The position numbers and the translations under genes are program-made. A DNA stretch of 64,000 bases. Origin: Roseivirga echinicomitans. GTDB lineage: Bacteria > Bacteroidota > Bacteroidia > Cytophagales > Cyclobacteriaceae. Under the pieces are notes generated by a model. That model was not told the origin of the DNA. It saw nothing but the letters and a program-made list of their open reading frames with translations, and did no database searches. Where the stretch lies: contig NZ_LRDB01000004.1 of the NCBI RefSeq assembly GCF_001592935.1, positions 62,001 through 126,000 of the forward strand. The letters run 5' to 3'. This document shows, piece by piece, positions 5,464 to 35,158 of this stretch (position 1 is its first letter; every line of letters starts with the position of its first letter).

Positions 5464-5520
5464 CTATCTATTTGTTTTAAAATTTACCCACATGATATAC
5501 CTGCCACGTTTATGGCATAT

Positions 5521-18108: not shown

Positions 18109-18711
18109 TTAAAGAATGCTTCCAATAACTGTGTAGAAAATATCGAAATTGCTGGCTCCAGAGATGGCTAAAGCACTAGCTTTTACCTTGAATTGAATGG
18201 GGATATCTTGACGACAGCCGACAAATTCAAATACTTTAATGGCTGCATTTCCATTGTTGGGAATAGTAATATAACCGCCTCCGTTCTCAGGAGTTAGATC
18301 TCTAGGGCCTAAAGGCCGTACAAGTAGGTTGTCGTATAAAATGTTAACGGGGAATCTTACTCCACTATTCATAGTTGTTTTGGCCTGTATTTCTACATTT
18401 TGAGGCGCGTTTTGAGTGTGCATGTAGACTGAATATCGAAATATATTCAATGAACAGTTTAGTGCTGAGCTGGTTAAGGGGATGCCAAGGATAGGTGCCA
18501 CCGTAGGGTCTAAAGTGAAAGAAATTAAACTGGCGTCTATATTTGATTCAAAACCAACAGTATTGGCGTCCTCACCAGCCTCCATCACCAAGTCATTGAT
18601 GCTTTCTACGATATTAGGAAAACCGCTAACGTCTAAGGTGCCAGGTAAAAGCTGACCAAAAGACAAGCTAGAAAATGACAATAAAAGTATGATTGTATAT
18701 ATGTTTTTCAT
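18109..18711 (-). CDS. Secreted subunit-like protein B of usher-like operon
   Basis: A 200-residue exported protein with signal peptide MKNIYTIILLLSFSSLSFG. The mature part is beta-rich with two cysteines (in ALNCSLNIF and FVGCRQDIP) that could form a disulfide. The C-terminus (FDIFYTVIGSIL) is an amphipathic strand with a Tyr near the end, like the last strand of chaperone-usher pilins. It follows the 189-residue gene by 11 bases. I do not recognise a named family. Pilin-like status is inferred from size, export, beta content and neighbours. Confidence 0.6.
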   Translation of the reverse strand: MKNIYTIILLLSFSSLSFGQLLPGTLDVSGFPNIVESINDLVMEAGEDANTVGFESNIDASLISFTLDPTVAPILGIPLTSSALNCSLNIFRYSVYMHTQNAPQNVEIQAKTTMNSGVRFPVNILYDNLLVRPLGPRDLTPENGGGYITIPNNGNAAIKVFEFVGCRQDIPIQFKVKASALAISGASNFDIFYTVIGSIL

Positions 18712-18722: not shown

Positions 18723-19292
18723 TTATTGAATACGATAGATTACTTCAAATCCCGCAGGAAGTGTTTTTGAATTACTAATGGTATAAGTGATGTGATAGCC
18801 TCTGTTTAAACCATCGCCTGTATAGCCATTTGCAAAGTCATACACAATAACCTGCTCGGTTTGACTAAGCCGGATTTTATTGGTGTTTGGGTTCTTAGGG
18901 TAATTCCCCCCAGTTCCTGTTTGTGTTATTTGAACTTCTATTTTCATTCCATTCGGAATGGGTTGATTGGTAGAGACATAGATCCTGGCCGGTTGATAAT
19001 TTTGAGCTCGATGCGTAAAATTGATCCAAAGGTTGGACAGATCAGCACCACCACTGCTTGGTGGGGGAAGTCCTGCTTCCGTACCTGCACCAGCACCACC
19101 TCCAGCACCTGCTAAGGTTTCAGGCTCAATGTCAATGATGGCGATGGGCAACAATTCAATAGAGGCTCCAGTAGACTTTTGATCGCCACCGAGAACAATA
19201 AGATTGAGAATGTTAGTGTTTATCGTTTCTTGTGCCCAAGCCATTGATGAACTTAGGAGTAGAATGAATAGGATATGTATAGTACGTTTCAT
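18723..19292 (-). CDS. Secreted subunit-like protein A of usher-like operon
   Basis: A 189-residue exported protein; the signal peptide ends at SSMAWA-Q. The segment ELLPIAIIDIEPE near residue 50 resembles VNVPEVAIIDIFD of the duplicated 212-residue proteins at 25-27 kb, so all three probably share an N-terminal strand. It is followed by a glycine-rich linker (AGAGGGAGAGTEAG) and a beta-rich remainder ending in FEVIYRIQ. It starts 2 bases after the usher-like gene, indicating translational coupling. No named family is recognised; a structural subunit of the surface assembly is inferred. Confidence 0.6.
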   Translation of the reverse strand: MKRTIHILFILLLSSSMAWAQETINTNILNLIVLGGDQKSTGASIELLPIAIIDIEPETLAGAGGGAGAGTEAGLPPPSSGGADLSNLWINFTHRAQNYQPARIYVSTNQPIPNGMKIEVQITQTGTGGNYPKNPNTNKIRLSQTEQVIVYDFANGYTGDGLNRGYHITYTISNSKTLPAGFEVIYRIQ

Positions 19293-22120: not shown

Positions 22121-22909
22121 TTATTTTAAGTTTAAGGCCAAGTTGGTTCCTGTATAGTCTTCGCGGGCTTCAGCCAGCAGTAGACATTTGTAATCGCCAG
22201 GAGGTAGAGAGGAAATATCCACTACATATGTTTTGCAAACACCTGGGAAAACCATGTTTCGATCCGTTTCAAAAACTGACACTTTGTTTCCTGCAGCATC
22301 ATAAACTTCTAGTGTTAAAAGCACACCTTCTATAAAGGCACCATCGTTTTTAACATTGATTTCTAATTTTTTAGGAGTGTCTTCAGTTTGGTTGAAGTTC
22401 ACTTTTGAAAAGTCAATGTTTACATCATCAAAACCATTTACGTGAGTCAATAGGCCAATTGCATACCTTACTTTGGTGTCGAGGCCGATGTTGTTAGTTA
22501 ATCTTTCTTTCTTCACTGGGTTTTCTACATAGACCATCAATACGCTCCAGTATGAACCTTTTAGTGTTTGGTTGGCTGGGATTCTGATGGTATAGCGATA
22601 GGTGTATTTTTCGTTTGGCGCTAACACCTTTTCCATTACCTCGCTTTCAAACCAATCGCTTGAAGACTGTGCGTGAGGAGCTTTTTCAGTAAACTTTCTA
22701 TTGGCATCACAAGAAAAGAGCGCTTCGTTAATAGAGAATGTAACTCTTTGATCGATGGCTGATGAATTGAAAAGGATCACTTCGCCAGAAATGATGTCGC
22801 CAGAGTTACCAGTGTAGAAATGGGTCAAACCATTAATTACTGTTACACTGGCTGTTGCTAGCTGACTGCTGAATAAAAGTATTGCGAATATTGTAAGTAG
22901 CTTTTTCAT
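22121..22909 (-). CDS. Periplasmic Ig-fold chaperone-like protein
   Basis: A 262-residue exported protein (signal peptide to about ATA at residue 20). It reads as two Ig-like domains. The first (~25-150) has a strand pattern seen in pilus chaperones and DUF916-type proteins: an opening ISGEVILFNSS strand, then VLAPNEKYTYRYTIRIPANQ and GSYWSVLMVYVE. The second (~160-262) has KKLEINVKNDGAFIEGVLLT and ends with VVDISSLPPGDYKCLLLAEA. It opens the operon that encodes the usher-like barrel 42 bases later. The chaperone role for the exported subunits is inferred from architecture and context; key cleft residues of FimC/PapD cannot be placed. Confidence 0.6.
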   Translation of the reverse strand: MKKLLTIFAILLFSSQLATASVTVINGLTHFYTGNSGDIISGEVILFNSSAIDQRVTFSINEALFSCDANRKFTEKAPHAQSSSDWFESEVMEKVLAPNEKYTYRYTIRIPANQTLKGSYWSVLMVYVENPVKKERLTNNIGLDTKVRYAIGLLTHVNGFDDVNIDFSKVNFNQTEDTPKKLEINVKNDGAFIEGVLLTLEVYDAAGNKVSVFETDRNMVFPGVCKTYVVDISSLPPGDYKCLLLAEAREDYTGTNLALNLK

Positions 22910-22941: not shown

Positions 22942-23005
22942 CAAAATTGCAGCTTCTGAGCTGTAAAAAACGCCAAGTGTCGGTCAATGGGAGATTGGTG
23001 TCGGT
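22942..23005 (-). promoter_or_regulatory. Promoter P1 with LytTR-type direct repeats (chaperone/usher operon)
   Basis: In plus-strand reading: -7 box CAAAATTG (22942-22949), proximal half-site GTGTCGGT (22977-22984) and an identical distal half-site (22998-23005), a perfect 8-bp direct repeat with 21-bp period. The gap from -7 box end to proximal start is 28, the same as at four other promoters in this block. The start codon is at 22909. Confidence 0.75.
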
Positions 23006-23181
23006 AAAATGCGAGAATGCATCTTTTAAGCTTTGCTCGAGGTTTTGGGGACTCTCGAAGGGGGTGTTTTATGTTGGTCTTTAAACCATTTTGCCTTTCA
23101 TGTTATTGAAAGGTGCGCTGAATGGGGAAGGGGCTTTACACACCACCGATGCATTGATGGTGGATGTTATACGGTGTACGT

Positions 23182-23583
23182 TTATGCCGCCTTCGCTTTA
23201 TTGAATAGCACATCCAGTTTTCCCATGGTCAAGGGCTTACTGATATAACCTGTTACATCGGTATGGGCCTTAGATTTATTGATGTCTGTATCATCTACCG
23301 AGGAAGAGAGCATGTAGATCTCAAACTTATCTTTCACTTCCTGGCTAAATGTGGCGAAGGCGTCTAGAAATTCCCACCCGCTCATTTCGGGCATATTAAT
23401 ATCCAATAGAAGTGTGGTTTTAGCGGGAAGTTCAGCTTGATTCGATATGAAGTCTAAAGCGTCTTGCGCAAAGTTGAATTCACTTACTACTGCTCCGTCA
23501 ATTACTTTCGAAATAATGATTTTTGAAAGTAAGTTGTTTACTGGGTCGTCATCTATGGTGATAAAAGTGTTCTTGATTTCCAT
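23182..23583 (-). CDS. CheY-like single-domain response regulator
   Basis: A 133-residue receiver: TIDDDPVNN acidic pocket, phospho-acceptor D61 in LLLDINMP, YMLSSSVDD switch region, and Lys in YISKPL. It is 21 bases after the PAS kinase gene at 23605-25245, which probably phosphorylates it. It is a close paralog of the regulator at 35356-35757 (shared ITxDDDPxN start, LLLDINMP and L-x-SSS segments). The two regulators thus flank the block. No output domain. Confidence 0.92.
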   Translation of the reverse strand: MEIKNTFITIDDDPVNNLLSKIIISKVIDGAVVSEFNFAQDALDFISNQAELPAKTTLLLDINMPEMSGWEFLDAFATFSQEVKDKFEIYMLSSSVDDTDINKSKAHTDVTGYISKPLTMGKLDVLFNKAKAA

Positions 23584-23604
23584 AATGTTTGATTTTAATA
23601 GTGA

Positions 23605-25245
23605 TTATTGAGGTAGGCTGATGGTAAAAGTGGTTCCCATATTGGGTGCACTATCAATCTCTATCGAGCCTCCCATGGCTTCTATTTGAGCGTTAATCAT
23701 ATATAGGCCAATGCCTCTGCCTTCCACGTCTTGATGGAATCTTTTGTATAAACTGAAGATGTGCTCTCCATGCTTTTCCATATCTATCCCTCGTCCGTTG
23801 TCCTTAAATTCTAGTACTATGTTCCCCTTTTTTATGGAAGACCTTATTGATAATTTTAAAGCTTCACCTGGTTTTTTGTACTTAATACTATTGGTCAATA
23901 GGTTGGTGAATATGCTCACCATGTATGGCTTTATGGTAGTGATTTTATCTACCTCAGCGAAGTCTCCATCTATAAATTCAGTCTGCTTGGCTTCAACATT
24001 AGAAAGGTTTGCTTTGGTGTCTTCTAGTAAACTGGTGAATGACATTTCTACCTTTCCTTCATCTTGATCAGTTTTGATTTTCAGAATTGAATTAAGGTCC
24101 AATACCACACTGTCTAAATTATCGGCAGATTTCTTTAAGCCCTTTAGGTATTGATCATAACCCTCCATTGTGGGATCTAATTCTGGAATTAGGGTCGAAA
24201 GCCCAATAATGTTGGTTAAAGGAGCTCTTAAGTTATGTGACACAATAAATGCGAACTGCTCCAATGCTTTATTTCGTTGAATAAGGCTATTGGTCATGGC
24301 TTCTTTTTCAAGCATCCATTTTCTCTGTTCGGTAATGTCGTCTGCGGCTATCGTAATCCCGGTAACTACTTGGTCACTATTGATGATTGGAAACATTCTG
24401 AGTTTTAACCATCTGTCAGTACCATCCTTAAGCGGGAAATGTGTTTCGTAGCTCAAAGGTTTTTGTGTGGCCATTATTTCTTCGATAGCCTCCTTTACTA
24501 TCGAGACTCTAGTGGCTGGGATAAGGTCAAAATAGCTGGCCCCGACTTTAATCGAGTTGTCTGAAGCCGAAACTATAAATTCATTGGCTTGATCGTTGAA
24601 GCTTACAATGTTAAACTCCTTGTTGATTAGCACATAACCAGTGTCTGTGTTTTCTAGAATGTTTCTAAAATTGGCTTGCGCCTGTTGAAGTTTTTTGAAG
24701 CTTTCTTTCTTTTCGCTTAAGTCTTGTGTGATGCCTATCATTCCAATAGGAGTGCCTTCCTGACCATATATGAATTCGCCATGCTGGTTTACGTACTTTA
24801 CTTCTCCAGACTTGCAAACTACTCGGTGACCAACATTAAAACATTGTTTAGTCTCCAAGCCCTCAGCTATTGCTAGAGTCATCTGATCCAAATCTTCTGG
24901 ATGAACATGGGCATAGAAAAAATCAATATTAGGTTTAACCTCGCCTGGCTCATAACCGTAGATTCTAAATACTTGATCGGACCATTCAACTGAATCGCTG
25001 ATGAATTCTCCATTCAATGCGTACTTTACTTCCCAACAACCAGTTTTGGCCATGTTTTGTAAGGCAGACATTCTTTGAATGACTTTACTGGCCAGTTGTT
25101 GATCCATGGCTGATAGGTCTTCAGTATTCTTATTTCGTGCCAAAGAATTCATTGGGTGCTCAGTAGCTCCTTGCAATGACAACTGGCAATTCAGTAAATT
25201 CTGATTGCCCGCTTTATCGTTTGTTTCTACTGTGAGTGTTTCCAT
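23605..25245 (-). CDS. Soluble PAS-sensor histidine kinase
   Basis: A 546-residue cytoplasmic kinase without membrane segments. Two PAS/PAC modules: about 60-180 (YGYEPGEVKPNIDFFYAHVH, IGITQDLSEKK) and 185-310 (NTDTGYVLINKEFNIVSF, ITIAADDITEQRK). The HisKA domain has H337 in FIVSHNLRAPL; the ATPase shows LLTNSIKYKKPG, FKDNGRGID and GRGIGLYMI. It forms a pair with the regulator downstream. It has its own promoter with the shared repeat architecture (25284-25347), so it belongs to the same regulon as the surface genes. The PAS ligand is unknown. Confidence 0.92.
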   Translation of the reverse strand: METLTVETNDKAGNQNLLNCQLSLQGATEHPMNSLARNKNTEDLSAMDQQLASKVIQRMSALQNMAKTGCWEVKYALNGEFISDSVEWSDQVFRIYGYEPGEVKPNIDFFYAHVHPEDLDQMTLAIAEGLETKQCFNVGHRVVCKSGEVKYVNQHGEFIYGQEGTPIGMIGITQDLSEKKESFKKLQQAQANFRNILENTDTGYVLINKEFNIVSFNDQANEFIVSASDNSIKVGASYFDLIPATRVSIVKEAIEEIMATQKPLSYETHFPLKDGTDRWLKLRMFPIINSDQVVTGITIAADDITEQRKWMLEKEAMTNSLIQRNKALEQFAFIVSHNLRAPLTNIIGLSTLIPELDPTMEGYDQYLKGLKKSADNLDSVVLDLNSILKIKTDQDEGKVEMSFTSLLEDTKANLSNVEAKQTEFIDGDFAEVDKITTIKPYMVSIFTNLLTNSIKYKKPGEALKLSIRSSIKKGNIVLEFKDNGRGIDMEKHGEHIFSLYKRFHQDVEGRGIGLYMINAQIEAMGGSIEIDSAPNMGTTFTISLPQ

Positions 25246-25283
25246 GTTTTATTCTTTTGAAGTTAGAATGATTAACTAATGAT

Positions 25284-25347
25284 CAAATGTGGGACAGTGG
25301 GCAGACTATTATTGAGCATTGACGATCAATGGCAGTTTTGTGTAGAT
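25284..25347 (-). promoter_or_regulatory. Promoter P5 with LytTR-type repeats (PAS kinase/regulator pair)
   Basis: Plus-strand reading: -7 box CAAATGTG (25284-25291), proximal half-site TTGACGAT (25319-25326, followed by CAATG), distal half-site GTGTAGAT (25340-25347). Spacings of 28 and 21 match the other four promoters exactly. The half-sites match the GTGTCGGT consensus at 5/8 and 6/8 positions. Confidence 0.6.
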
Positions 25348-25424
25348 GAATTGTGTTAAACATCCTTTGAACACTTTTGGCATGTAAAAGCCTTTTTTGA
25401 AGCGTATATGGTTATTAATCAGAC

Positions 25425-25457
25425 AAAAAGCCTCACAACAGTTAAGTCATGAGGCCT
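25425..25457 (-). terminator. Terminator of downstream 212-residue gene copy
   Basis: On the minus strand GGCCTCATGAC ... GTTGTGAGGC forms a stem (two G-U pairs) around TTAACT, followed by TTTTT. The same hairpin follows the paralogous gene at 26407-26442. Confidence 0.85.
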
Positions 25458-25480
25458 TGAGTAGAGCGTATTTTTAGTTC

Positions 25481-26119
25481 TTACAAATCAGAAAGTGTGT
25501 ATCTGATAGTCGCTTGGTAAAGACCAGCTTTGTAACCAGAGAAGTTTCCGTTTTGCTCTAAAGTGTAAGTTAGTTTCACACCATAGTTTTGGTCACCAGT
25601 GTAAACACTTTCAATGCTGCTTACCAATAAAGCGTCAGTTCCAATTGGAGTAGAAGTGCCCAAAGCAACACCGGCAGTTACAACAGATCCTGCTGAATTG
25701 GCGTCACCACCATTTGCAATGATTACTGGAGTCTGTGGAGTAATTCTAAGATCAAGGCTACCAGGGAAAGTGCTTCCGTTTTCGAATTGGACATCAATTT
25801 GTCTCGTAACATCAAAACCAGAAGCAGCCTGTCCAACTACACTAGTGTAATTCAAGAACATGTTTCCATAACTCATGTCTTGAAAAGCATAAAGACCAGC
25901 TTCAGCATTTGTACCTACAAGGGTTACGTTTGACATGTCCATCATAATTGGTCCAGCTTCAGTGCCAGTGTTGGCATCAAAAATATCGATGATCGCCACT
26001 TCGGGAACGTTAACCTCCAATTGGTGTGAAGCAATCTTGGTGTCATTGTTGTCCTGAGCCATTAGACCTTGAGAGAACAGTGTTAGGGCAAGTGCAATTA
26101 CTAAATTTGATTTTTTCAT
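25481..26119 (-). CDS. Secreted 212-residue subunit-like protein, copy 2
   Basis: An exported protein (signal peptide MKKSNLVIALALTLFSQGLMA). The mature N-terminus has an alternating-hydrophobic strand, HQLEVNVPEVAIIDIFD, also seen in the 189-residue protein at 18723-19292. The rest is beta-rich, low in cysteine, and ends with GLYQATIRYTLSDL, a pilin-like last strand. About 90% identical to the product of 26462-27100. It is a stand-alone gene with its own promoter and terminator, which would allow high expression as a major subunit. No named family is recognised. Alternatives are a secreted matrix or S-layer-like protein. Confidence 0.65.
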   Translation of the reverse strand: MKKSNLVIALALTLFSQGLMAQDNNDTKIASHQLEVNVPEVAIIDIFDANTGTEAGPIMMDMSNVTLVGTNAEAGLYAFQDMSYGNMFLNYTSVVGQAASGFDVTRQIDVQFENGSTFPGSLDLRITPQTPVIIANGGDANSAGSVVTAGVALGTSTPIGTDALLVSSIESVYTGDQNYGVKLTYTLEQNGNFSGYKAGLYQATIRYTLSDL

Positions 26120-26165
26120 AATGTGTGTTTTTTATAAATGAATGTTTGTTTGATTAATTATGATT

Positions 26166-26229
26166 CAAACTTAGGGCAATGTGGCCAGTGGATTCTTTGT
26201 TTTAAGGCCAATGACAGGGGAGTGTCGGT
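26166..26229 (-). promoter_or_regulatory. Promoter P2 with LytTR-type repeats (212-residue gene, copy 2)
   Basis: Plus-strand reading: -7 box CAAACTTA (26166-26173, reverse complement TAAGTTTG, a perfect TAnnTTTG), proximal half-site TTTAAGGC (26201-26208) followed by CAATG, distal half-site GTGTCGGT (26222-26229). Gaps of 28 and 21. This lies in the 342-bp spacer 26120-26461, which otherwise holds only the upstream copy's terminator. Confidence 0.75.
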
Positions 26230-26406
26230 GAAATGTAGGTATGAGGCTTTGGAATATTATTGGCTTTTAAGCAAAGTGCTTTGGCTGAGAATAAGTGTCC
26301 TGATTGTCGTAGGCCAAAACACTTGAATCCCGAAGGGTTAAGACTCCTGAGGCTATGGTTTGGGTTACAGGATTCTCTTAGAAGTAGATAAGAGACTGTT
26401 GCGCAG

Positions 26407-26442
26407 AAAAAAGGCCTCACAACAGTTAAGTCATGAGGCCTT
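26407..26442 (-). terminator. Terminator of upstream 212-residue gene copy
   Basis: Same hairpin as at 25425-25457, with a longer T-run (six) on the minus strand. It isolates the two tandem genes transcriptionally. Confidence 0.87.
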
Positions 26443-26461
26443 GAAGAGGATGTTAGTCTTT

Positions 26462-27100
26462 TTATAGATCGGAAAGTGTGTATTTGATAGTCGCAAAATA
26501 AAGGCCCGCTTTGTAAGCTGAGAAGTTTCCGTTTTGCTCTAAAGTATAAGTTAATTTAACACCATAGTTTTGGTCTCCGGTGTAAACACTTTCAATGCTG
26601 CTTACTAGCAAAGCGTCAGTTCCAATTGGAGTAGAGGCACCTAGCGCTACACCACCCGCTACTACAGAACCAGCAGAATTAGCATCACCACCGTTGGCAA
26701 TGATCACTGGAGTTTCAGGAGTAATTCTGAGGTCCATGCTGGCAGGGAATGTACTTCCGTTTTCGAATTGAACATCGATTTGTCTTGTAACATCGAAGCC
26801 TGAGGCAGCTTGTCCAACTACGCTTGTGTAATTCAAAAATATGTTTCTATAACTCAACTCTTGAAAAGCGTAAAGACCGGCTTCGGCATTTGTTCCAACA
26901 AGCGATACGTTGGTCATGTCTATCAAAAGGGGCCCCACTTCTGCTCCGGTGTTGGCATCAAAAATATCGAGGATTGCCACTTCGGGAACGTTAACCTCCA
27001 ATTGGTGTGAAGCAATGTTTGTGTCATTGTTGTCCTGAGCCATCAGGCCTTGAGAGAATAATGTTAGTGCAAATGCAATTACTAAGTTTGACTTTTTCAT
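26462..27100 (-). CDS. Secreted 212-residue subunit-like protein, copy 1
   Basis: Paralog of 25481-26119, offset by exactly 981 bases with no indels in the coding region. Signal peptide MKKSNLVIAFALTLFSQGLMA, then the shared strand VNVPEVAILDIFD and the C-terminal FATIKYTLSDL. Most amino-acid changes are conservative (Ile/Leu, Gly/Ala). Together with the copy it is the best candidate for a major surface subunit that is handled by the chaperone-like and usher-like proteins. The upstream gene is the LytTR regulator, separated by a terminator. Confidence 0.65.
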   Translation of the reverse strand: MKKSNLVIAFALTLFSQGLMAQDNNDTNIASHQLEVNVPEVAILDIFDANTGAEVGPLLIDMTNVSLVGTNAEAGLYAFQELSYRNIFLNYTSVVGQAASGFDVTRQIDVQFENGSTFPASMDLRITPETPVIIANGGDANSAGSVVAGGVALGASTPIGTDALLVSSIESVYTGDQNYGVKLTYTLEQNGNFSAYKAGLYFATIKYTLSDL

Positions 27101-27146
27101 AATGTTTGTTTTTTATAAATGAATATTTGTTTGATTAATTATGATT

Positions 27147-27210
27147 CAAACTTAGGGCAATGAGGCGGGTGAATTCTTTGTTTTAAGGCCAATGGCAGGG
27201 GAGTGTCGGT
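27147..27210 (-). promoter_or_regulatory. Promoter P3 with LytTR-type repeats (212-residue gene, copy 1)
   Basis: Plus-strand reading: -7 box CAAACTTA (27147-27154), proximal half-site TTTAAGGC (27182-27189), distal half-site GTGTCGGT (27203-27210). Geometry and sequence are those of P2, as expected from the 981-bp duplication. Confidence 0.75.
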
Positions 27211-27292
27211 GAAATGCAGGACAAAGGCTTTGGAGTATTATTGGCTTTTAGTTTCCATAAGCCTAGAAGTATTGGGTAGGCTAGGGGGAATT

Positions 27293-27329
27293 AAAAAAGC
27301 TTCTGAACAAATGAATTGGACAGAAGCTT
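27293..27329 (-). terminator. Terminator of the signalling operon
   Basis: On the minus strand AAGCTTCTG ... CAGAAGCTT forms a 9-bp stem, followed by TTTTTTAA. It lies 30 bases past the stop of the LytTR gene and ends the eight-gene cluster before promoter P3. Confidence 0.85.
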
Positions 27330-27358
27330 GATGAATATTTTATTAGTTAATAAGCGCT

Positions 27359-28081
27359 TTAGAGTAAGTTGAGTCTTCTCATTAATTCTGGTCTCTTAGA
27401 CCTACTGATTGGAATCACATTTTTCTCAATTAGAATGGTGTTGTCTTCAATGTCGACAATTCGTGAAAGATTAATGATGTAAGATCTATGCACATGGAAG
27501 AAAGGATCATTCGGTAGCTTGTCCACAATCTTCTTCAAAGTTGAATGCACTTTATATTCTTTTTCATGAGTTTTAATCAATATATAGTCTCCTTCAGCCT
27601 TTATGACGTTGATGGAATCCGTTTCGATTTTGATCAAAGTTCGGTCAATATTGACATACAAGGTTTTTGCCGAATCACCCTGCTTTTCATTGTTTGAACT
27701 TTCTGTCGAAGCAACAGCTTTGGGGGCGGCAACAAATGATTTGGCTTTTACTATTGCCTTCTCAAAGCGGGGTCTTTCAATTGGTTTTACCAAATAGTCG
27801 ATTACACTGTCATATTCAAATGCGGTAAGGGCTAGGCTTTGATCTGAAGTGGTAAGGATAATTCTTGGAGGGTTTTTTAGGGTTTGAATAAAATCGAATC
27901 CAGAAAAATCAGGCATGTGTATATCCAAGAATATGAGGTCAATATCGTTTTTGTTCAAGAATTTGATTGCACTCATGGCATTCGAAAATTGCTCGATCAT
28001 ATCTAAGTCAGGAACTTCAGAACAAAGCTGATTCAGAATCACTCTGGATGTCTCTTCGTCATCAATAATAATACAGGTCAT
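27359..28081 (-). CDS. LytTR-family response regulator
   Basis: A 240-residue DNA-binding regulator. The receiver occupies residues 1-~120 with acidic IIIDDEE, D53 in IFLDIHMP, and YLVKPIERP carrying the conserved Lys. The LytTR domain spans ~140-240 (LYVNIDRTLIKIETDSINVI; FFHVHRSYIINLSRIVDIED; VIPISRSKRPELMRRL). Its start overlaps the HPt stop by 4 bases (ATGA). It ends the relay operon and is the only DNA-binding output in the block apart from the alpha-CTD-like protein, so it is the prime candidate to bind the 21-bp-spaced repeats at promoters P1-P5. Confidence 0.95.
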   Translation of the reverse strand: MTCIIIDDEETSRVILNQLCSEVPDLDMIEQFSNAMSAIKFLNKNDIDLIFLDIHMPDFSGFDFIQTLKNPPRIILTTSDQSLALTAFEYDSVIDYLVKPIERPRFEKAIVKAKSFVAAPKAVASTESSNNEKQGDSAKTLYVNIDRTLIKIETDSINVIKAEGDYILIKTHEKEYKVHSTLKKIVDKLPNDPFFHVHRSYIINLSRIVDIEDNTILIEKNVIPISRSKRPELMRRLNLL

Positions 28082-28410
28082 ATTCGGTGGTTCTCAATGT
28101 GATTTAAAAAAGTAATCATTTTTTTTAGAATTTGAACGAAAACCTTGTGTAAGTCTGTGCGATTATTTTTTAAGTTTTCCTCAAAGTCTTGTGCTATCAA
28201 GTAGCTTTCCTGCATTCCGAGCAGGCTAATTTTATGTTTGAGCTTATGAACGTTACTAGCCGCATCAGTCAATTTACCTGAGGTGATATTGTTTTCAAAT
28301 TCCTTGATTTCAATGGGTAATTCTCTGGCTAAAACTTCCAAAAGTTTGTTCTCAAAAGCTAAATCACCATTCGAGAGTTGCTTAATATAGTTGAAGTTAG
28401 GTTTAGGCAT
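28078..28410 (-). CDS. Histidine phosphotransfer (HPt) protein
   Basis: A 110-residue all-helical protein. The motif VHKLKHKISLLGM matches the HPt signature AHxLKGxxxxxG, with H55 as phospho-acceptor; the usual Gly after Lys is His here. It overlaps the kinase gene upstream (8 bases) and the LytTR gene downstream (4 bases), so the three are translationally coupled. It likely carries phosphate from a receiver to the LytTR regulator or drains it in the opposite direction. Confidence 0.85.
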   Translation of the reverse strand: MPKPNFNYIKQLSNGDLAFENKLLEVLARELPIEIKEFENNITSGKLTDAASNVHKLKHKISLLGMQESYLIAQDFEENLKNNRTDLHKVFVQILKKMITFLNHIENHRI

Positions 28411-29569
28411 CGTTTTTTAATGTAAAGTAAAATGTGGTTCCTTCATTTAATTTAGATTCTAACCAAATGTCTCCAGCATAGTAGCTTACGATTTTCTTTA
28501 CTACCGAAAGCCCAATTCCTGTCGATTTTTGGTCTTCGTCTAAGCTTTGAAACACTTGAAAAATCTTGTCATAGTGAGTCTTGTCAATTCCTTTTCCGTT
28601 GTCCCTTACAAAAAACTCAAATCCATCTTCAATTTCTCGCGAACCAATTTCAACCAATGGGGCAGGCTTATCATTGTATTTTAGAGCATTTTCAATCAAG
28701 TTTTGAAATAGCTGTTGCAGCCTAAAGGCGTCACCATTGATCACGGGTAGATCACATATGATTTTGACTACCGAATGCTCTGGTAATACAATAGTTTCGA
28801 TTGTTTTTGCCACCAAGTCATTGAGGTTGATGGGGTGCTTCTCATCAACTGTTTTATCTATGGTAGAATACCTCAGAATACCATCAATCAGGTTGTCCAT
28901 TTTTTCAAGGTTGTCACCAATTAGATTGAAGGTTTCTATACCTGATGAATCTATAACTGATTTATAATCTTCTTTGATCCAGCTGGTTAAAGCTTCGATG
29001 TTTCGGATGGGCGACTTTAGGTCATGTGAAACTATATGGGCATAGTCGCTTAACTCTTGATTTTGTTTTTCTAAGCTGACCAGTAGTTCTTCTCTTTTAG
29101 AAAATATGAGAGCACCCTGTAAGGACAAGGTGAACTTATCGATAATTGGGCTCAGCTGATTAAGTTCAATTTGTGAGAATTCTTGCTTTCTTGAACTGTA
29201 TAGGAATAGGAGGCCTTGGTCTTTAAGGTTAAATATGGCTACCGAGCCACCTTTTAATTTTAGTGGCGCTATCAGTTGAATGTCTTGGGTTATTGGGTGC
29301 GATATGTGTTTGTTTTGATAATGAATATCCTTTAAAATTACTTTGTCGCACTCTAAAAGTTTTGGGGTACGTGTAGTAGGAATGGAGTAGGAAACACGAC
29401 AATGTTCCTCTGAATAAGAATAAATCCAACAGGCTTCCAGGTCTTTTCTCGACATAATCAGCTTGAGTAGGCTGTCACAGTTCTCCTTATAGTTAAAGGA
29501 CTTGCCTATGGCCATAGAGAACTCATACAGCTGGAGAATATCGATGATGTTTTTATTGATGGGTACCAT
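28403..29569 (-). CDS. Histidine kinase with N-terminal GAF-like sensor
   Basis: A 388-residue soluble kinase. Residues 1-~150 look like a GAF-type domain (helix LYEFSMAIGKSFNYKENCDS, then strands LEACWIYSY and VAIFNLKDQGLLFLYSS). The HisKA helix has H182 in YAHIVSHDLKSPIRN; the ATPase shows LIENALKYNDKP, VRDNGKGID and STGIGLSVVKKIV. The catalytic half closely resembles that of the 30684-32651 kinase, suggesting duplication. The gene starts 5 bases after the FIST gene, which likely supplies a ligand signal to it. Confidence 0.9.
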   Translation of the reverse strand: MVPINKNIIDILQLYEFSMAIGKSFNYKENCDSLLKLIMSRKDLEACWIYSYSEEHCRVSYSIPTTRTPKLLECDKVILKDIHYQNKHISHPITQDIQLIAPLKLKGGSVAIFNLKDQGLLFLYSSRKQEFSQIELNQLSPIIDKFTLSLQGALIFSKREELLVSLEKQNQELSDYAHIVSHDLKSPIRNIEALTSWIKEDYKSVIDSSGIETFNLIGDNLEKMDNLIDGILRYSTIDKTVDEKHPINLNDLVAKTIETIVLPEHSVVKIICDLPVINGDAFRLQQLFQNLIENALKYNDKPAPLVEIGSREIEDGFEFFVRDNGKGIDKTHYDKIFQVFQSLDEDQKSTGIGLSVVKKIVSYYAGDIWLESKLNEGTTFYFTLKNDA

Positions 29570-29574
29570 ATCTT

Positions 29575-30672
29575 CTATTCAAACAAACCTATAACCACTG
29601 TTTTATTAAATAACTGAAGATAGCTATCTCCAAAAGAGGATATTTCACCTAAGGTAAGTGCCCCCTCTACCGGAATAGGCTGATTGTTTTTTACCAGTTT
29701 TTTAGAAATAGCTTTAAGTTCTAAATGATAATCGTCTTCCAAAAAGAGGATACGTGATATGCAATTACTGATATAAGCTTGCTTTGGAGATTCGAGCTGA
29801 GTGATTACCTGAGATGCAGCAGCTTCAGCAGCTTGTATTAATGTTTCGTTATCTCCATTGAGAACATCAAGAACAGTGTTTTCCATCACCTCACCGATAC
29901 AAACAATTTCCCCCTTGTCGTTTAAGGTAAGCGGATCGCGAACCACATATTCGGAGTTGTCTTTTAGAATACCAAAAGGGTATGCTTTAGCAATTGATGG
30001 GAAGTTTTCACAACTGATCTCCTTTTGACTGTGCTCTTTGATGATGTTTTTATACACCTCAAAAGCGGGCTGCCAGTTAATTTCTTGGATTGTGTTTTTA
30101 TCTGTTTTTGTGGCTACATATGGGCCCGCTATTCTCTTCCAGCCATGCTTTACACCCAAGGCAATTTTGGATTTGGCAATAAGACCAACTGCCGCATCTT
30201 GATGAATTCCTGATTTATCGAAGACACAGGGGATCTGTAGTAGACTTAAACTTCCTGTTCCAGCTCCAATGTAAGAGACTTTGTTACCATACGAGGTATA
30301 CAATTCTGATAAATAAAGGGATAAGTAGGAGGTGAGACCATCGGCAAAAGTAAATAGGAAGTAGTTGTCATCTTCTTCCAAATCAATTTTTGGGATGTTG
30401 AAAGATTCCGTGTTTAAGTCCTTCACCAAATAGGTTTCCACTACATTAGAAAAGCCTGTCAGTATCATTCCTTCATCGTACACTTCTGTTCCAGAGATTA
30501 CTTTTGGGAAGATTCCCCCAATGAACGGAATATCATGTTCAACCAAACAGCCGATCAAGGCATTAATGTCAATTGCAGAATGTTCGGCAACCGAAATAAC
30601 AACGGTTTGTTGACCGAAGTTATTTATGATGCTTTCTGCAACTACTTTAGGATCAATTGTTTTTATATACAT
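29575..30672 (-). CDS. FIST-domain sensor protein
   Basis: A 365-residue soluble protein. Residues ~10-200 fit FIST_N (PFIGGIFPKVISGTEVYDEG; NYFLFTFADGLTSYLSLYL; VSYIGAGTGSLSL) and ~210-350 fit FIST_C (YPFGILKDNSEYVVRDPLTL; ALTLGEISSFGDSYLQLFNK). FIST domains are signal-input modules proposed to bind small ligands such as amino acids. It is a stand-alone protein placed 5-11 bases from two kinases, so it probably delivers its signal by protein contact. Confidence 0.9.
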   Translation of the reverse strand: MYIKTIDPKVVAESIINNFGQQTVVISVAEHSAIDINALIGCLVEHDIPFIGGIFPKVISGTEVYDEGMILTGFSNVVETYLVKDLNTESFNIPKIDLEEDDNYFLFTFADGLTSYLSLYLSELYTSYGNKVSYIGAGTGSLSLLQIPCVFDKSGIHQDAAVGLIAKSKIALGVKHGWKRIAGPYVATKTDKNTIQEINWQPAFEVYKNIIKEHSQKEISCENFPSIAKAYPFGILKDNSEYVVRDPLTLNDKGEIVCIGEVMENTVLDVLNGDNETLIQAAEAAASQVITQLESPKQAYISNCISRILFLEDDYHLELKAISKKLVKNNQPIPVEGALTLGEISSFGDSYLQLFNKTVVIGLFE

Positions 30673-30683
30673 GTTGGGTTTTT

Positions 30684-32651
30684 CTATTTTTTGAACTTCA
30701 GGAAAAAGGTAGTTCCAACTCCTTCTTCGCTTTCTAAATATATTTCTCCTTCATATTGCTCCACTATTTTCTTTACAATGGATAAGCCAATGCCAGTAGA
30801 ACCTTTTTTTGGATCAGTATTAAGGGATTGAAATATTCCAAAGATCTTTTCGTGATACTCCTTTGCTATACCCACTCCATTGTCTTTGATGGAATAAATC
30901 CAATACTTGCCAGCGTCTTGGTAGTCTATCTCCACGGTGCCCACTTCTTTATCGATGTAATTGATAGCGTTGCCTATTAAGTTCTGAAAGAGCTGCTGCA
31001 CACGGGTAGGATCTGCATAAATACTCGGAAGGGGTTTGTTAACTGTCACAGTGATGTGATCTGGGATATAGAGTAGGGCGACTATATTCTCGATGGTTTC
31101 ATCGATTGAAACAACCCTTTCTTCGTCTTTTGCTCGTTCAATGGCGGAATAGGTAAGGATTCCATTGATAAGGCTTTCCATCTTTTCCACTGTGAGTTCG
31201 ATCAAATCTAGGTTTCGATGTCCTTGATCATGCATTATATCGTTGCAATCTTCTTTGATCCAACTGACCAATGCCGAAATGCTTCGGAGGGGAGATTTTA
31301 AGTCATGAGAAACCACGTGGGCATATTCCTGTAATTCGTTATTGCTTTTTTCTAGCCTTTTTAAAAGGTTTTCCTTTTGTTGCTCCGCCCTTTCTTGTTC
31401 CGAAATGTCTTCGATTACGATGACATGGTATTTTATTTTTCCTGTGCTATCTCTCACTACACTCAAATTCGATTTTGCAGAAATTGTGGTGCCGTCTTTT
31501 TTGATGTACCTTTTTTTAAGAATTACAGTATCCTGTTCTCCATTCTGAATTTTTTGCATTAAGCCTTTGGATGCTGCTAAGTCACCGGCATGTGTTATGT
31601 CTTCAAATCTAAGCGATTTTGACTCTTCATGGGTGTAACCTAATAAGTCTAGTAGGGCTTGGTTTACTTTGGTAAGCGCCCCATTATCAGACAATACAAT
31701 CCCTAGTGGGGAGTTGTCAAAAATAACTTCGAGCTGTTCCCTTTGGTCTTCTATAAGCGCATTCCTACGCGCTTCTTCCGTAATGTTTTCTAAAATTGAT
31801 AGTCGATATTTTGGCTTGCCGTGGTCATCAAAAATGGTGGTAATATTTACCCTTACTTTGATTAGCTCACCTTTTTTCGTTTTAATTTCTTGTGTGAAAT
31901 CTATTCGATTTTTCTCACCAGAGTTCATCTGGGCTTGTATTTCCTGAATTTTCGAAACATCCTGAGGGAGAATGAATTCAATAGGGTCAATGTGTTGCAG
32001 TTCATTGACAGTGAAGCCCATCATGTCTTGAAATGCCTTGTTCGATTTAATGATTGTACCATTTTCTGTCAATACAATTCCAAAAGGTGAACTGTTAACG
32101 ATTGTTGATAGTTCTGCCCTTTGTTCTTCTATCAGCACTCGGGCTTTATTTTCCTCAGTAATATCTCGGATAATGCCCTCGGCTGCTATGGCTACTTTTT
32201 TGTCATTATAAACTAAATTGGCATTTATGTGTACTAATTTGTAGGGTCCTTCTTTGGTATATACCCGTGCCACATAATCAGTAAAAGCTCCGTTTTTAAT
32301 CAGGTCTTTGTAGCAATTCATTGCATAGGTGAAGTCGTCTCTGTAAATAAGATTTACAATGTTCAAAGACTCATTTTGAAGATCATAACCAAAGAGTTCA
32401 ATGGCGGCTTCATTCATTTCTAGCGCATTTCCTGCCAAATCCATTTTTAAGTAGGCATCAGCTAAGCTGGAATAAACGCCATTCTCTTTCTTAGTAGGTT
32501 TGGGAGTTGAGGTAGTATTGGCAATTTTGAGTTTTTGGTTCAATTCATACAACTCAAGGGACTTTTCCTCAAGAATTTTTTCTGCTTCTTTTCTGGCTAG
32601 TTTTTCTCGACCTAAAGCTCTTTCCAATAAGGCTATTTGCTCATCAATCAT
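30684..32651 (-). CDS. Multi-PAS histidine kinase partner of H-NOX
   Basis: A 655-residue cytoplasmic kinase. It starts with a charged coiled coil (residues ~1-45, RALGREKLARKEAEKILEEK), then three PAS/PAC modules (~60-175, 180-300, 305-425; FGIVLTENGTIIKSNKAFQD and LGIVLSDNGALTKVNQALLD are internal repeats). HisKA H449 is in YAHVVSHDLKSPLRS; the ATPase has LIGNAINYI, IKDNGVGIA and STGIGLSIVKKIV. The start overlaps the H-NOX stop by 8 bases. H-NOX proteins often regulate a co-encoded kinase, so NO control of this enzyme is likely by family precedent. Confidence 0.92.
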   Translation of the reverse strand: MIDEQIALLERALGREKLARKEAEKILEEKSLELYELNQKLKIANTTSTPKPTKKENGVYSSLADAYLKMDLAGNALEMNEAAIELFGYDLQNESLNIVNLIYRDDFTYAMNCYKDLIKNGAFTDYVARVYTKEGPYKLVHINANLVYNDKKVAIAAEGIIRDITEENKARVLIEEQRAELSTIVNSSPFGIVLTENGTIIKSNKAFQDMMGFTVNELQHIDPIEFILPQDVSKIQEIQAQMNSGEKNRIDFTQEIKTKKGELIKVRVNITTIFDDHGKPKYRLSILENITEEARRNALIEDQREQLEVIFDNSPLGIVLSDNGALTKVNQALLDLLGYTHEESKSLRFEDITHAGDLAASKGLMQKIQNGEQDTVILKKRYIKKDGTTISAKSNLSVVRDSTGKIKYHVIVIEDISEQERAEQQKENLLKRLEKSNNELQEYAHVVSHDLKSPLRSISALVSWIKEDCNDIMHDQGHRNLDLIELTVEKMESLINGILTYSAIERAKDEERVVSIDETIENIVALLYIPDHITVTVNKPLPSIYADPTRVQQLFQNLIGNAINYIDKEVGTVEIDYQDAGKYWIYSIKDNGVGIAKEYHEKIFGIFQSLNTDPKKGSTGIGLSIVKKIVEQYEGEIYLESEEGVGTTFFLKFKK

Positions 32652-33186
32652 TATGAATAATATAGAATTTTACTCTGGTTCCTTCTGGGTTTAGCTTCTC
32701 ATAGGTAATGGTGCATTCTTGATGAAAATGCTCGAAAGTTTTCATCATTAAGGCCTCTGCTAATTTATATAGTGCACGCTGAGAAGAGTAAATCATTTCC
32801 ATGGAGTTCGGGCTCGTCTTAGTAACCTCAAAGGTGGGTAATTCAGCACCTGGATATATTTTCCGTACTTGAACATGAATATGACCCTCTACAGAATTGA
32901 GGAAGTCCATGGGGGATTTATAAAGCTCAAAGATGTTGGGGTGTGCTTTTTTTAAGTGGTTGAAAAAATGAACTCCGAAAGCATGAATTAGATCATCAAC
33001 AGGGATGTCTACTTCATCGCTTAGGTTTAAAATGAGTTGAAGCATTTCGTTAAAATCATAGGTGCCAATTGCAGTATATGCACCACCTGTTTTTAACTCA
33101 GCCCTTTCTATGATTTTATCCACGGTTGCAAGACCAAACTTGCTCTCCACCATTTCGAGGAATTCTGTAAATACTATGCCTTTCAT
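32644..33186 (-). CDS. H-NOX haem nitric-oxide sensor
   Basis: A 180-residue haem protein (HNOB family). It shows the start MKGIVFTEFLEMVESKFG, GGAYTAIGTYDFNEM, and the propionate-binding YxSxR motif as Y133-S-S-Q-R137. The proximal haem ligand should be H104 in GHIHVQVRKIYPG. The protein is soluble and full length. H-NOX proteins sense NO (facultative aerobes) or O2; I could not place a distal-pocket Tyr, so NO is the likelier ligand, but this needs alignment. It is coupled to the PAS kinase downstream (overlap) and follows a CheY-like regulator by one base. Confidence 0.93.
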   Translation of the reverse strand: MKGIVFTEFLEMVESKFGLATVDKIIERAELKTGGAYTAIGTYDFNEMLQLILNLSDEVDIPVDDLIHAFGVHFFNHLKKAHPNIFELYKSPMDFLNSVEGHIHVQVRKIYPGAELPTFEVTKTSPNSMEMIYSSQRALYKLAEALMMKTFEHFHQECTITYEKLNPEGTRVKFYIIHND

Positions 33187-33187
33187 A

Positions 33188-33607
33188 TTATGTAGTTATG
33201 AGTTGATTTATTTCCCAATAAGACAATAACTTAGCTATTTTATCAACGTAATCATCGTATTTCAATGGTTTTAAAATATAGCCAGCAATTCCAATTCGGT
33301 AACATTCGAGCAGATCTTTTTGATTGTTTGAGGTAGTGAGTACAATAGTAGGAATGTACCTGAGCCTGTCGTCATCTTTTAAACGTTTCAAGAATTCAAT
33401 TCCACTTATCCTTGGCATGTTGAGGTCTAGTAGAATGATTTGCGGAAGGAGGTCGGTGCCTTCTAGAATTTTCAAAGCTTCCTCTCCATTGTTGGCTTCT
33501 ATAATTTTGTTTTCATAATCTAGTTTAGAAACAGTTCTGTTGAACTTCATTCTTTCAATCATGTCGTCCTCAATAAAAAGAATAGAAGGGGAGGTTTTTT
33601 TGGTCAT
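33188..33607 (-). CDS. CheY-like response regulator of the relay operon
   Basis: A 139-residue receiver with LFIEDDMIE, phospho-acceptor D61 in IILLDLNMP, IVLTTSNN and YILKPL. I chose ATG 33607 because the sequence upstream to 33742 shows no receiver features and includes a possible promoter-like repeat (CCTTCGGTGAAATG at 33694). It lies one base before the H-NOX gene. With HPt and LytTR proteins in the same operon it may be the intermediate receiver of a His-Asp-His-Asp relay. Confidence 0.9.
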   Translation of the reverse strand: MTKKTSPSILFIEDDMIERMKFNRTVSKLDYENKIIEANNGEEALKILEGTDLLPQIILLDLNMPRISGIEFLKRLKDDDRLRYIPTIVLTTSNNQKDLLECYRIGIAGYILKPLKYDDYVDKIAKLLSYWEINQLITT

Positions 33608-33746
33608 TTTATTAAATGGTTTGATGCTTTTGTCTACGAATATCCTCAATAATTGCTTATTATTATCTTGGCTGCCGTTGAACGGGCGGGCTTCCTTCGG
33701 TGAAATGCACTTAACTATAGACGAATGGAAATAAGTGAGCAACCAC

Positions 33747-35072
33747 TTATTTCTTGATTTTTATCTCGACCCTTCTGTTTAAGGCCCTTCCATCTTTAGT
33801 AATATTACTGGCCAAAGCTTTTTCTTCTCCATATCCAATCACTATGGCCCTACTTACATCTACACCTTTAGAAAGCAGGTAGTCACGTACTGCTTCAGCT
33901 CTTTTTTGTGATAGGGCGTAGTTCTTGTCCTGTTGACCTATGTTATCTGTATGGCCATGAATTGCCACTTTGAAAATTTTTAATTCGGACATTAGTTCAG
34001 CCAGCTCATCTAGCTTGGCTTGGGTTGGCATATTTATTTCTGCTTTGTTAAAGTCGAAATACACCTGGTAGAGCGGTAGTTTTATTTCTGGGCAACCACC
34101 TTCTTCCAATGATCCAGCATTGTTAGGGCATTTATCCAGTTTATCAATCAGTCCGTCTTTATCAGTGTCGGGGCAACCATTAATAGTACCGGCAATGTTA
34201 GGACAAGCATCTTCTGAATCTTTCACACCGTCACCATCGGTATCTGGGCAGCCTTCCATTTCAATTTTACCAGCTAGCATAGGGCAATTGTCATCTTTGT
34301 CTGGAACTTTGTCTCCATCCATGTCAGGACATCCGTTGATTGTACCAGCAATTAATGGGCATGCGTCAAAGCGATCTTCTACACCATCTTTATCCGTATC
34401 TTCATATGGGCAGCCTTGGTTTTCCATTGGGCCATAAACAGAGGGACATGCGTCTTCTTTGTCTATGATGCCATCCTTATCAGTGTCGGTATTGTTTTTT
34501 AGAGAGAAAGAGAAACCTGCCGAGAACCTTCTATGGCTTACCTTATTGCTTTCAATATTAGCAACCTTTACCATGAACTGCATGTTTTTTGTAAAACGGT
34601 ATTTCAATCCCGCGGCCAATGGAAATACAACTCCAGCACCAGATTCTTTTTCAACTGCCGCTTCATTAAAATTGGCAATCCCAAAGCCCGCTTCAATAAA
34701 AGGAGTGAGTTTGGATTTTGTAGGTAATATGAAACCGTTGTTGAGTTTGAAGATTGCAGTAGCTTCTAAAGCAGCAATATTTACACGTATGTTGTTCATA
34801 TTGCTCAAATCCAGAAGGCCATTATTATGGTCTGTAATTTTACCTACCGCTATTTTTCCTGAAAAATTAAAGCTTTTTGAAAGGTAATGTTCAATTCCGA
34901 TACTGAAGGATGGTTTCTTGATTCTTAAGGCATCATCAAATGACTTCTTAAAAAAAGAGCCATACTGATTGTTGTCTGCAGTAATCACTAACCAAGCTTT
35001 GTCGCTTTCAAACTGCGCTTTGGTGGTGAATGAGATGAATAAAAATGTGAGTATAATGAGTATCCTGTTCAT
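33747..35072 (-). CDS. OmpA-family protein with TSP3 calcium repeats
   Basis: A 441-residue outer-membrane protein. Signal peptide to about TKA-Q (residue 20); residues ~25-195 form a small beta-barrel (Phe/Lys-rich strands such as YRFTKNMQFMVKV). Residues ~200-320 contain five thrombospondin type 3 units (DTDKDGIIDKEDACP and relatives) that bind calcium. Residues ~330-441 are the OmpA C-terminal peptidoglycan-binding domain (VYFDFNKAEIN; AIHGHTDNIGQ; LSQKRAEAVRDYLLSKGV; GRALNRRVEI). It heads the signalling operon under P4, suggesting that the regulon includes an envelope anchor or rigid spacer. Confidence 0.93.
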   Translation of the reverse strand: MNRILIILTFLFISFTTKAQFESDKAWLVITADNNQYGSFFKKSFDDALRIKKPSFSIGIEHYLSKSFNFSGKIAVGKITDHNNGLLDLSNMNNIRVNIAALEATAIFKLNNGFILPTKSKLTPFIEAGFGIANFNEAAVEKESGAGVVFPLAAGLKYRFTKNMQFMVKVANIESNKVSHRRFSAGFSFSLKNNTDTDKDGIIDKEDACPSVYGPMENQGCPYEDTDKDGVEDRFDACPLIAGTINGCPDMDGDKVPDKDDNCPMLAGKIEMEGCPDTDGDGVKDSEDACPNIAGTINGCPDTDKDGLIDKLDKCPNNAGSLEEGGCPEIKLPLYQVYFDFNKAEINMPTQAKLDELAELMSELKIFKVAIHGHTDNIGQQDKNYALSQKRAEAVRDYLLSKGVDVSRAIVIGYGEEKALASNITKDGRALNRRVEIKIKK

Positions 35073-35094
35073 AGCTTTGGATTGATAATGTTCT

Positions 35095-35158
35095 CAAACT
35101 TAGGGCATATAAAAAGGCTCTGAAATCCACTTTAGATGAATTGCACTTAAGCTTCGGT
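35095..35158 (-). promoter_or_regulatory. Promoter P4 with LytTR-type repeats (OmpA/signalling operon)
   Basis: Plus-strand reading: -7 box CAAACTTA (35095-35102), proximal half-site CTTTAGAT (35130-35137), distal half-site GCTTCGGT (35151-35158). Gaps of 28 and 21 as in the others. It precedes the OmpA gene start at 35072 and, through it, the LytTR gene, implying autoregulation. Confidence 0.65.

Follow-up and report, generated by a model that had tools for sequence, protein, structure and literature searches.

Candidate tandem operators of a LytTR regulator precede sensor, relay and fibre genes in Roseivirga echinicomitans and other Bacteroidota

Introduction

Targets of LytTR regulators have been defined as paired direct repeats of about 9 bp, 10-13 bp apart and upstream of the core promoter (PMC11347149), and the receiver-LytTR proteins YpdB and AgrA are described with two such repeats just upstream of it (PMC4847170, PMC4227749), those of YpdB being a strong and a weak site that are filled cooperatively (PMC4847170). 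The present work concerns six comparable operators, P1 to P6, and the LytTR response regulator encoded among them, in a 64,000-nucleotide stretch of the Roseivirga echinicomitans genome (contig NZ_LRDB01000004.1, positions 62,001 to 126,000; the whole stretch is called the window). The locus shares with YpdB and AgrA the receiver-LytTR protein and the direct repeats just upstream of the core promoter, and differs from them in its half-site (CATTCAYCGAYAS), in a 27-nt link to a -7 box of the Bacteroidota, in having two or apparently three half-sites, and in the stand-alone receiver and HPt protein of its operon. The LytTR motif of the window protein reads FFHVHRS, where the usual motif is FhRhHRS (PMC4227749).

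Other described systems are close in their signal or their output. RcoM1 and CoxC are LytTR gas sensors with three direct repeats (in RcoM1 8 bp long and 12-13 bp apart; PMC11347149), and gas-linked LytTR regulation is a feature that the present locus appears to share. They carry the CO sensor in the same protein, whereas here the gas sensors are separate proteins encoded next to kinases; an arrangement of three half-sites is mainly a feature of relatives. In Vibrio fischeri, H-NOX/HahK signals to the HPt of SypF, and in other vibrios H-NOX or NosP signals to LuxU (PMC8738867, PMC6769237). These systems and this locus have in common a kinase with a haem-based nitric oxide (NO) sensor next to it, a subsequent HPt step and an output that concerns the cell surface or biofilm, but the output here, in Bacteroidota, would be a LytTR regulator and a fibre operon. 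By fold, the chaperone- and usher-like proteins of the locus lean towards those of chaperone-usher pili, and the former also towards WxL-interacting proteins (WxLIP), with modest or low TM-scores.

Among titles in the open-licence literature, no paper was recognised on an operator sequence for a LytTR of Bacteroidota, Cytophaga or Flavobacterium, and nothing on this circuit was found under H-NOX with fimbriae or H-NOX in Kordia. A LytTR direct-repeat regulon is of a known kind; what is new, as far as these searches could show, is the half-site, the rule that its promoters follow, and a wiring of sensors, relay and fibre that recurs in two orders.

Results

All coordinates are window positions, and the operators are read on the minus strand, which is also that of the genes downstream of them (Table 1). 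At P1 to P5 the order is the same: a distal half-site, 21 bp, a proximal half-site, 27 nt, and a -7 box of the form YANNTTTG. The 8-bp cores stand 13 bp apart, giving the 21-bp period, and lie upstream of the -7 box, as paired direct repeats of LytTR targets do. The sequence-only reading that had drawn attention to these promoters named five boxes and ten half-sites, and all 15 elements were found with the letters and coordinates it gave, as was the 21-bp start-to-start spacing in five of five promoters. Its distance of 28 positions between box and half-site is likewise fixed in all five, the measured gap being 27 nt, and its 8-bp half-site is a real core within a longer conserved unit of about 13 bp, CATTCAYCGAYAS (58 half-sites tabulated), which includes the flank it had written as (C/G)AATG. 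All five of its sites were correct, but a sixth operator had been overlooked. P6 was found with a matrix of the five window sites and four sites of a relative, at 20.8 bits against 15.0 for the window's next match, and comprises two half-sites without a canonical -7 box. It lies inside the 5' part of the RR184 open reading frame, so that the true start of this gene is probably the ATG at 33607. As P2 and P3 are near-copies, they count together as about one observation.

The LytTR regulator that had been placed at 27359-28081 was recognised by Pfam, with LytTR at 71.8 bits (cutoff 22.6) and Response_reg at 64.1 (cutoff 30.2). In a tree of 79 LytTR proteins, the 29 rows that bear an operator, the weak G167 and G581 included, need only one label change (support 91/85; 92% of 200 bootstrap trees), and none of 500 label shuffles gave as few. 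These rows sit in a 32-row clade (100/99) together with Leeuwenhoekiella aequorea and two rows from metagenome-assembled genomes (MAGs) of Flavobacteriaceae. The operators accompany one LytTR clade across Cytophagales and Flavobacteriales, and this co-occurrence, with conserved sites before the same genes, supports the regulon interpretation of the sequence-only reading. Judged by sequence, the sites are real and, as their conservation indicates, functional, and with high probability they belong to this LytTR protein, which very probably binds them.

The nearest carrier of the block is Roseivirga ehrenbergii KMM 6017 (G004), which has it in rearranged form and with 31-78% identity between matched proteins. 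A comparison of spacers in relatives had been proposed as a check, and in spite of the rearrangement the chaperone, subunit (one copy), OmpA and PAS-kinase promoters of this species align without gaps to those of the window over 76 columns that include half-sites and -7 box; four of four orthologous promoters keep both sequence and spacing. A further R. ehrenbergii operator, 5' of a receiver gene (20.5 bits), is the counterpart of P6. When model R1, built from nine Roseivirga sites (five from the window and four from the relative), was run on 11 genomes of the same genus without a close LytTR orthologue, the best match scored 20.3 bits (G003, partial), close to the accepted receiver-gene site of R. 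ehrenbergii, and no other had a similar score. The G003 site was dropped, as it scores below 7 bits in the operator matrix and overlaps an open frame.

LytTR orthologues of at least 50% identity were listed in 17 of 390 genomes of the family. On 18 further loci R1 gave ten matches at E<=0.1, all of them 5' of a relay operon, subunit or chaperone gene, and these fell in 9 of 15 loci with a LytTR orthologue versus 0 of 3 with distant LytTRs. With a looser matrix a site was assigned in all 15 orthologue loci, the weakest being the retained g23 sites of G167 (9.1 bits, second match of its locus) and G581 (10.4 bits, tied). In G355, of another genus, receiver, H-NOX, kinase, HPt, LytTR, subunit, PAS kinase and chaperone genes form one block with three operators, before the receiver, subunit and chaperone genes as in the window. 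In 13 g23 species no fibre genes were detected in the 20-kb locus; the site still stands 5' of the LytTR's own operon, weakly in two of them. Together, 29 Cytophagales sites align without gaps to the consensus CATTCACCGAnACnTAAnTGCnATTCACCGATAG. In ten loci of LytTRs 35-41% identical, and in seven fibre loci of family f11, R1 gave no match up to E 1, and the operator is therefore not a general LytTR site.

Model R2, made from the 29 sites, matched beside the LytTR gene in 16 of 17 orthologue genomes, partly by construction; the sites had been hand-picked, and neither this count nor the scores of the 29-site matrix on its own sites is a test. In G553 a match of 36.9 bits with a box at 48 nt belongs to a second copy of the relay operon start (L143, G553:C10, about 1501), duplicated with its own operator and -7 box in this one species. 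Nine control genomes, of which four had no listed close LytTR orthologue and five were not listed either way, gave R2 matches only in G236 (best E 0.018) and G179, inside open frames and without a box. An operator-like match of 27.5 bits in G236 (L155, G236:C8, 1499-1532), within a frame of 823 codons, was taken as chance.

An out-of-sample set came from the fibre genes. Ten chaperone-like sequences used as a search alignment led to 80 named loci, R. ehrenbergii among them and 79 unseen, unlike a single chaperone sequence, which as query of the genome contigs gave no match. In Gramella sp. AN32 the genes for receiver, H-NOX, kinase, FIST, kinase, HPt, LytTR, subunit, chaperone, usher, p189 and p200 follow one another as in the window, but neither the OmpA gene nor the PAS pair is present; in a Flavobacteriaceae MAG the relay/fibre locus has no FIST gene, and several Lutibacter loci combine receiver, kinase and LytTR with fibre genes. 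At 19 bits, a threshold set after the shuffle-stage result was seen (40 shuffles of 83 kb peaked at 17.5), the 29-site Cytophagales matrix found sites in 11 of 11 unseen loci with a LytTR of at least 50% identity versus 2 of the 68 others. One of these two is Lutibacter oricola, whose genome encodes a 61% identical LytTR elsewhere, on a different contig from the fibre operator. Across the Cytophagales and Flavobacteriales loci, a lack of conservation in relatives that keep the genes, which the earlier reading had named as an outcome contrary to it, was not seen.

Positions relative to the -7 box were compared in 52 operators, 29 from Cytophagales and 23 from Flavobacteriales. Left out of the Flavobacteriales rows were in-frame matches, one-period shifts of counted sites, L174 (17.8 bits), L187, and R1 matches in L172 at 6641, 7886 and 9021, which lie 5' of HPt and two subunit genes and score below 13 bits in the matrix. 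The consensus -7 element of Bacteroides is TAnnTTTG. A [CTG]ANNTTTG box was present in 42 of the 52 operators, at 26 (1), 27 (13), 47 (11) or 48 (17) nt past the 34-nt operator, and at no other position within 80 nt in any of them; boxes with C or T first were present in 28 of 52, the background rate being 0.00126 per position. Where the box stands at 47-48 nt, a weak signal for a further half-site occurs at +42 to +43 (z 3.2), the best offset outside the two known half-sites, and because the box is displaced by exactly one 21-bp period the signal is read as a third half-site. A promoter thus seems to contain either two half-sites or three, the last of which precedes the -7 box by about 27 nt. 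In 11 of the 14 two-site promoters the last half-site is weaker than the first, an inequality that recalls the paired sites of YpdB. Within the 27-nt spacer no column is strongly conserved (best 9/14), and there is no evident -33 element.

The same signals were sought in the organism's own genome (4.18 Mb, 52 contigs), of which the specificity scan covered 1,249,052 bases, at all positions except the joints between stretches. With a matrix of 41 sites, none of them from Roseivirga, the top four matches were P6 (31.1 bits), P4 (28.9), P5 (26.8) and P1 (21.7), the best score outside the block being 17.4; P3 (14.1, eighth) and P2 (10.8) scored low, and these duplicated promoters have thus drifted. 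Matches above 8 bits numbered 35. For eight of them a -7 box stood at the expected distance, and each of these either coincides with one of P1-P5 or is shifted upstream of P5, P2 or P1 by a single 21-bp period; outside P1-P5 the scanned bases held no separate site above 8 bits with such a box. The regulon is local as far as the 1.25 Mb scanned, with six sites in the block and no box-bearing match outside it, in line with the earlier expectation that a matrix scan would yield few further sites, and in these bases the motif was not found scattered at random positions. Scans of whole genomes with the two models scored 150 of several hundred candidates in each genome; in the own genome, where these were 150 of 904 and 150 of 785 candidates, P6 was not listed by R1 and P2 was not listed by R2.

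Chance, or a by-product of promoter duplication, might be invoked for the repeats, as P2 and P3 are near-copies, the sites were picked by eye, and in-gene chance matches over whole genomes reach 20-27 bits; a score alone is thus no proof of an operator, and position and box are decisive. In the window, however, the full pattern, with up to two mismatches tolerated, gave five matches, all with none, where 0.13 were expected, and none of 100 shuffles reached five. This pattern was composed after the sites were known, a flaw from which the out-of-sample tests are free. Given the scans of unseen species, the shuffles, and a correctly spaced -7 box only at these promoters, the probability of such an origin is negligible. 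Nine R2 matches outside the loci were taken as chance, since they lie inside open frames of 327-893 codons without a correctly spaced -7 box; they score 13-27 bits in the matrix, and further R2 matches outside the loci, e.g., in G355, R. ehrenbergii and G000, score 12-16 bits.

The genes behind the operators encode sensors, a relay and fibre proteins (Table 1). The H-NOX protein has an HNOB domain at 138.1 bits (cutoff 25.5), and its closest structure is PDB 6bde (E 2e-60), for which the depositors' molecule name is aldolase, the next-best structures being named haem-NO-binding. Among the 20 window proteins scanned with Pfam there was no GGDEF or EAL domain; one PAS kinase of the window matches a sensor domain of the diguanylate-cyclase type. 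Another stand-alone receiver (35356-35883, minus strand), just upstream of P4, resembles RR133, and the two are 47% and 50% identical to the same R. ehrenbergii protein. In several g23 loci (L123, L125, L127, L129 and L132-L135) a protein of 134-170 aa, 5' of the HPt gene, replaces the relay-operon kinase; it partly resembles the ATP-binding region of kinases, and the L123 example has no Pfam match. At L066 (G020, 3911-7610), H-NOX, kinase and a 37% identical LytTR occur together without this operator, so the H-NOX/LytTR link may predate the operator.

The label chaperone/usher-like, given by the earlier reading, stands as far as folds lean that way, although no Pfam or NCBIfam chaperone or usher model matched the window fibre proteins. 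The AlphaFold model of the chaperone-like protein (mean pLDDT 92.8) has WxLIP as its best fold match, with CsuC, CfaA and YadV also high, and that of the usher-like protein (85.2) best matches FimD and PapC; the chaperones gave TM-scores of 0.46-0.59, the top ushers just 0.26-0.36. Members of the chaperone-like family also occur in MAGs labelled Chlorobiota, Planctomycetota and Deltaproteobacteria, and a resemblance to Gram-positive WxLIP is seen by fold and, for 8 of 47 members, by profile. In the G355 locus (L122, 14401-14664) only an 87-aa frame stands behind the chaperone-like gene, where an usher-like gene was expected. Near-identical terminator-like inverted repeats, seen by eye 3' of subunit genes A and B (about 25430-25459 and 26413-26442), were copied along with the gene duplication. 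The last gene of the fibre operon (17795-18091, minus strand) encodes a free protein of 98 aa that resembles the C-terminal domain of the RNA polymerase alpha subunit; of the loci searched, only that of R. ehrenbergii has it as well, and it is possibly a feedback or titration factor.

Table 1. Operators, -7 boxes and genes of the block (window positions)
Feature	Position	Strand	Context or basis
Operator P1, two half-sites 21 bp apart	22977..23010	-	5' of chaperone-like gene 22121-22909
-7 box of P1, CAATTTTG	22942..22949	-	
Operator P2	26201..26234	-	5' of subunit gene 25481-26119
-7 box of P2, TAAGTTTG	26166..26173	-	
Operator P3	27182..27215	-	5' of subunit gene 26462-27100
-7 box of P3, TAAGTTTG	27147..27154	-	
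Operator P4	35130..35163	-	5' of OmpA gene and sensor/relay genes
-7 box of P4, TAAGTTTG	35095..35102	-	
Operator P5	25319..25352	-	5' of PAS histidine kinase 23605-25245
-7 box of P5, CACATTTG	25284..25291	-	
Operator P6	33694..33727	-	5' of receiver protein and H-NOX genes
LytTR response regulator (receiver + LytTR), predicted binder of the six operators	27359..28081	-	Pfam; clade tree
HPt phosphotransfer protein	28078..28410	-	Pfam
Histidine kinase without receiver, HK388	28403..29569	-	Pfam
FIST protein	29575..30672	-	Pfam; distant from NosP
Multi-PAS histidine kinase without receiver, HK655	30684..32651	-	Pfam
H-NOX protein (haem-NO-binding by family)	32644..33186	-	Pfam; PDB 6bde
Stand-alone receiver protein RR184	33188..33742	-	Pfam receiver from residue 54; TTG start as listed
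OmpA-family outer-membrane protein with TSP3 repeats	33747..35072	-	Pfam
PAS histidine kinase under P5	23605..25245	-	Pfam
Stand-alone receiver protein RR133, behind PAS kinase	23182..23583	-	Receiver-type models
Fibre subunit-like protein A	25481..26119	-	
Fibre subunit-like protein B, near-copy of A	26462..27100	-	
Chaperone/WxLIP-like beta protein	22121..22909	-	AlphaFold model, fold search
Usher-like outer-membrane barrel with added beta domains	19295..22078	-	AlphaFold model, fold search
p189, fibre-operon protein	18723..19292	-	
p200, fibre-operon protein	18109..18711	-	

Discussion

The best explanation of the locus as a whole, and one we hold to be quite probable, is a LytTR-operator activation circuit. 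The clade-specific LytTR regulator would bind the tandem 13-bp half-sites, with their 21-bp period, at the six operators of the block and activate transcription from them. H-NOX, and perhaps also the FIST protein, would sense a haem ligand, probably NO, and tune HK655 and HK388, from which phosphate would pass to the stand-alone receiver RR184, to HPt and to the LytTR receiver. Phosphorylated LytTR might fill the strong outer half-site or half-sites first and then, cooperatively, the weak last one beside the core promoter, where it would aid RNA polymerase at a -7 box 27 nt downstream. In this way it would raise transcription from P4 and P6 (its own sensor and relay genes), from P2 and P3 (fibre subunits), from P1 (chaperone/usher-like operon) and from P5 (second PAS-kinase/receiver pair).

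At the level of sequence, the circuit draws support from the sites, their spacing and conservation, the co-occurrence with the LytTR clade, and the gene content. Its parts differ in likelihood. Regulation is probably by activation, and the order from kinase to RR184, HPt and LytTR is likely, HK655 and HK388 both being without a receiver, so that a stand-alone receiver and HPt would offer the missing relay steps. NO is the somewhat favoured signal, and for the filling of outer, strong half-sites before the weak last one the chances are about even. Vibrio H-NOX or NosP, when NO is bound, inhibits a kinase upstream of an HPt step (PMC8738867, PMC6769237), and by analogy NO may switch the window fibre off.

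Several observations weigh against this circuit or parts of it. The FIST protein is not NosP by the NCBIfam equivalog model (35.1 bits, cutoff 450), and the 20-kb loci of the 13 g23 species, G387 and Lutibacter contain the relay but neither H-NOX nor FIST, which means that NO cannot be the general input. Ten of the 52 operators, P6 included, are without a box. The third-half-site signal is modest, and two-site promoters give z 3.3 at an offset over the -7 box; that the third half-site is the weakest in 28 of 28 promoters is partly built in, as the best two define the frame and were also what the matrix was trained on. L. aequorea has a 60% identical LytTR and sites of only 12.5 and 12.4 bits. 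Nothing above 19 bits was found at the Flavobacteriaceae fibre loci L174, L179 and L184, with adjacent LytTRs of 40-43% identity, or at some Dyadobacter fibre loci with LytTR matches of 23-27%. Flavobacterium sandaracinum has an operator of 26.4 bits in an assembly without a close LytTR (best 38%). LytTR proteins, finally, can also repress, as CoxC does (PMC11347149).

The last two points each favour a different explanation. If the LytTR protein were a repressor, relief from it, e.g., on exposure to NO, would turn on the genes for fibre and relay; the three direct repeats bound by CoxC lie over the -35 box, and here 27 nt separate the end of the last half-site from the -7 box, which puts that end near the expected -33 position. 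The array, however, is upstream of the -7 box at a fixed distance in all 42 box-bearing operators, there is no strongly conserved -33-like element, as expected of activator-dependent promoters, and most LytTRs bind upstream and activate (PMC11347149), and repression is therefore unlikely. The operators might also be read by another factor of the block or genome, with the LytTR gene a mere neighbour, which would suit F. sandaracinum and the abundance of LytTR paralogues (35 own-genome matches to this protein). This is very improbable, as the 29 operator-bearing LytTRs are one clade, the 13 g23 species keep the site before the LytTR operon without detected fibre genes, fibre operator and LytTR of L. 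oricola are on different contigs, and the only other DNA-binding domain among the Pfam-scanned window proteins is that of the free alpha-like protein.

With the activation circuit as the preferred explanation, the locus may be read more broadly as an example of a portable module of the Bacteroidota. In such a module haem-based NO sensors would control the assembly of an unnamed chaperone/usher-like fibre by way of a relay split between receiver and HPt and of a LytTR dedicated to it, and the promoters would obey a counted grammar: the 13-bp half-sites, two or three in number, would repeat every 21 bp, the last being the weakest and anchored 27 nt from the -7 box. We consider this broader reading evenly balanced. 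If it is true, each target could owe its threshold to how many half-sites it has. Each promoter is a natural case for the effects of half-site number and strength. For one Bacteroidota LytTR clade, an operator sequence and a promoter rule are now supplied, and H-NOX in Bacteroidota would be tied to a concrete, predicted transcriptional output, a surface fibre.

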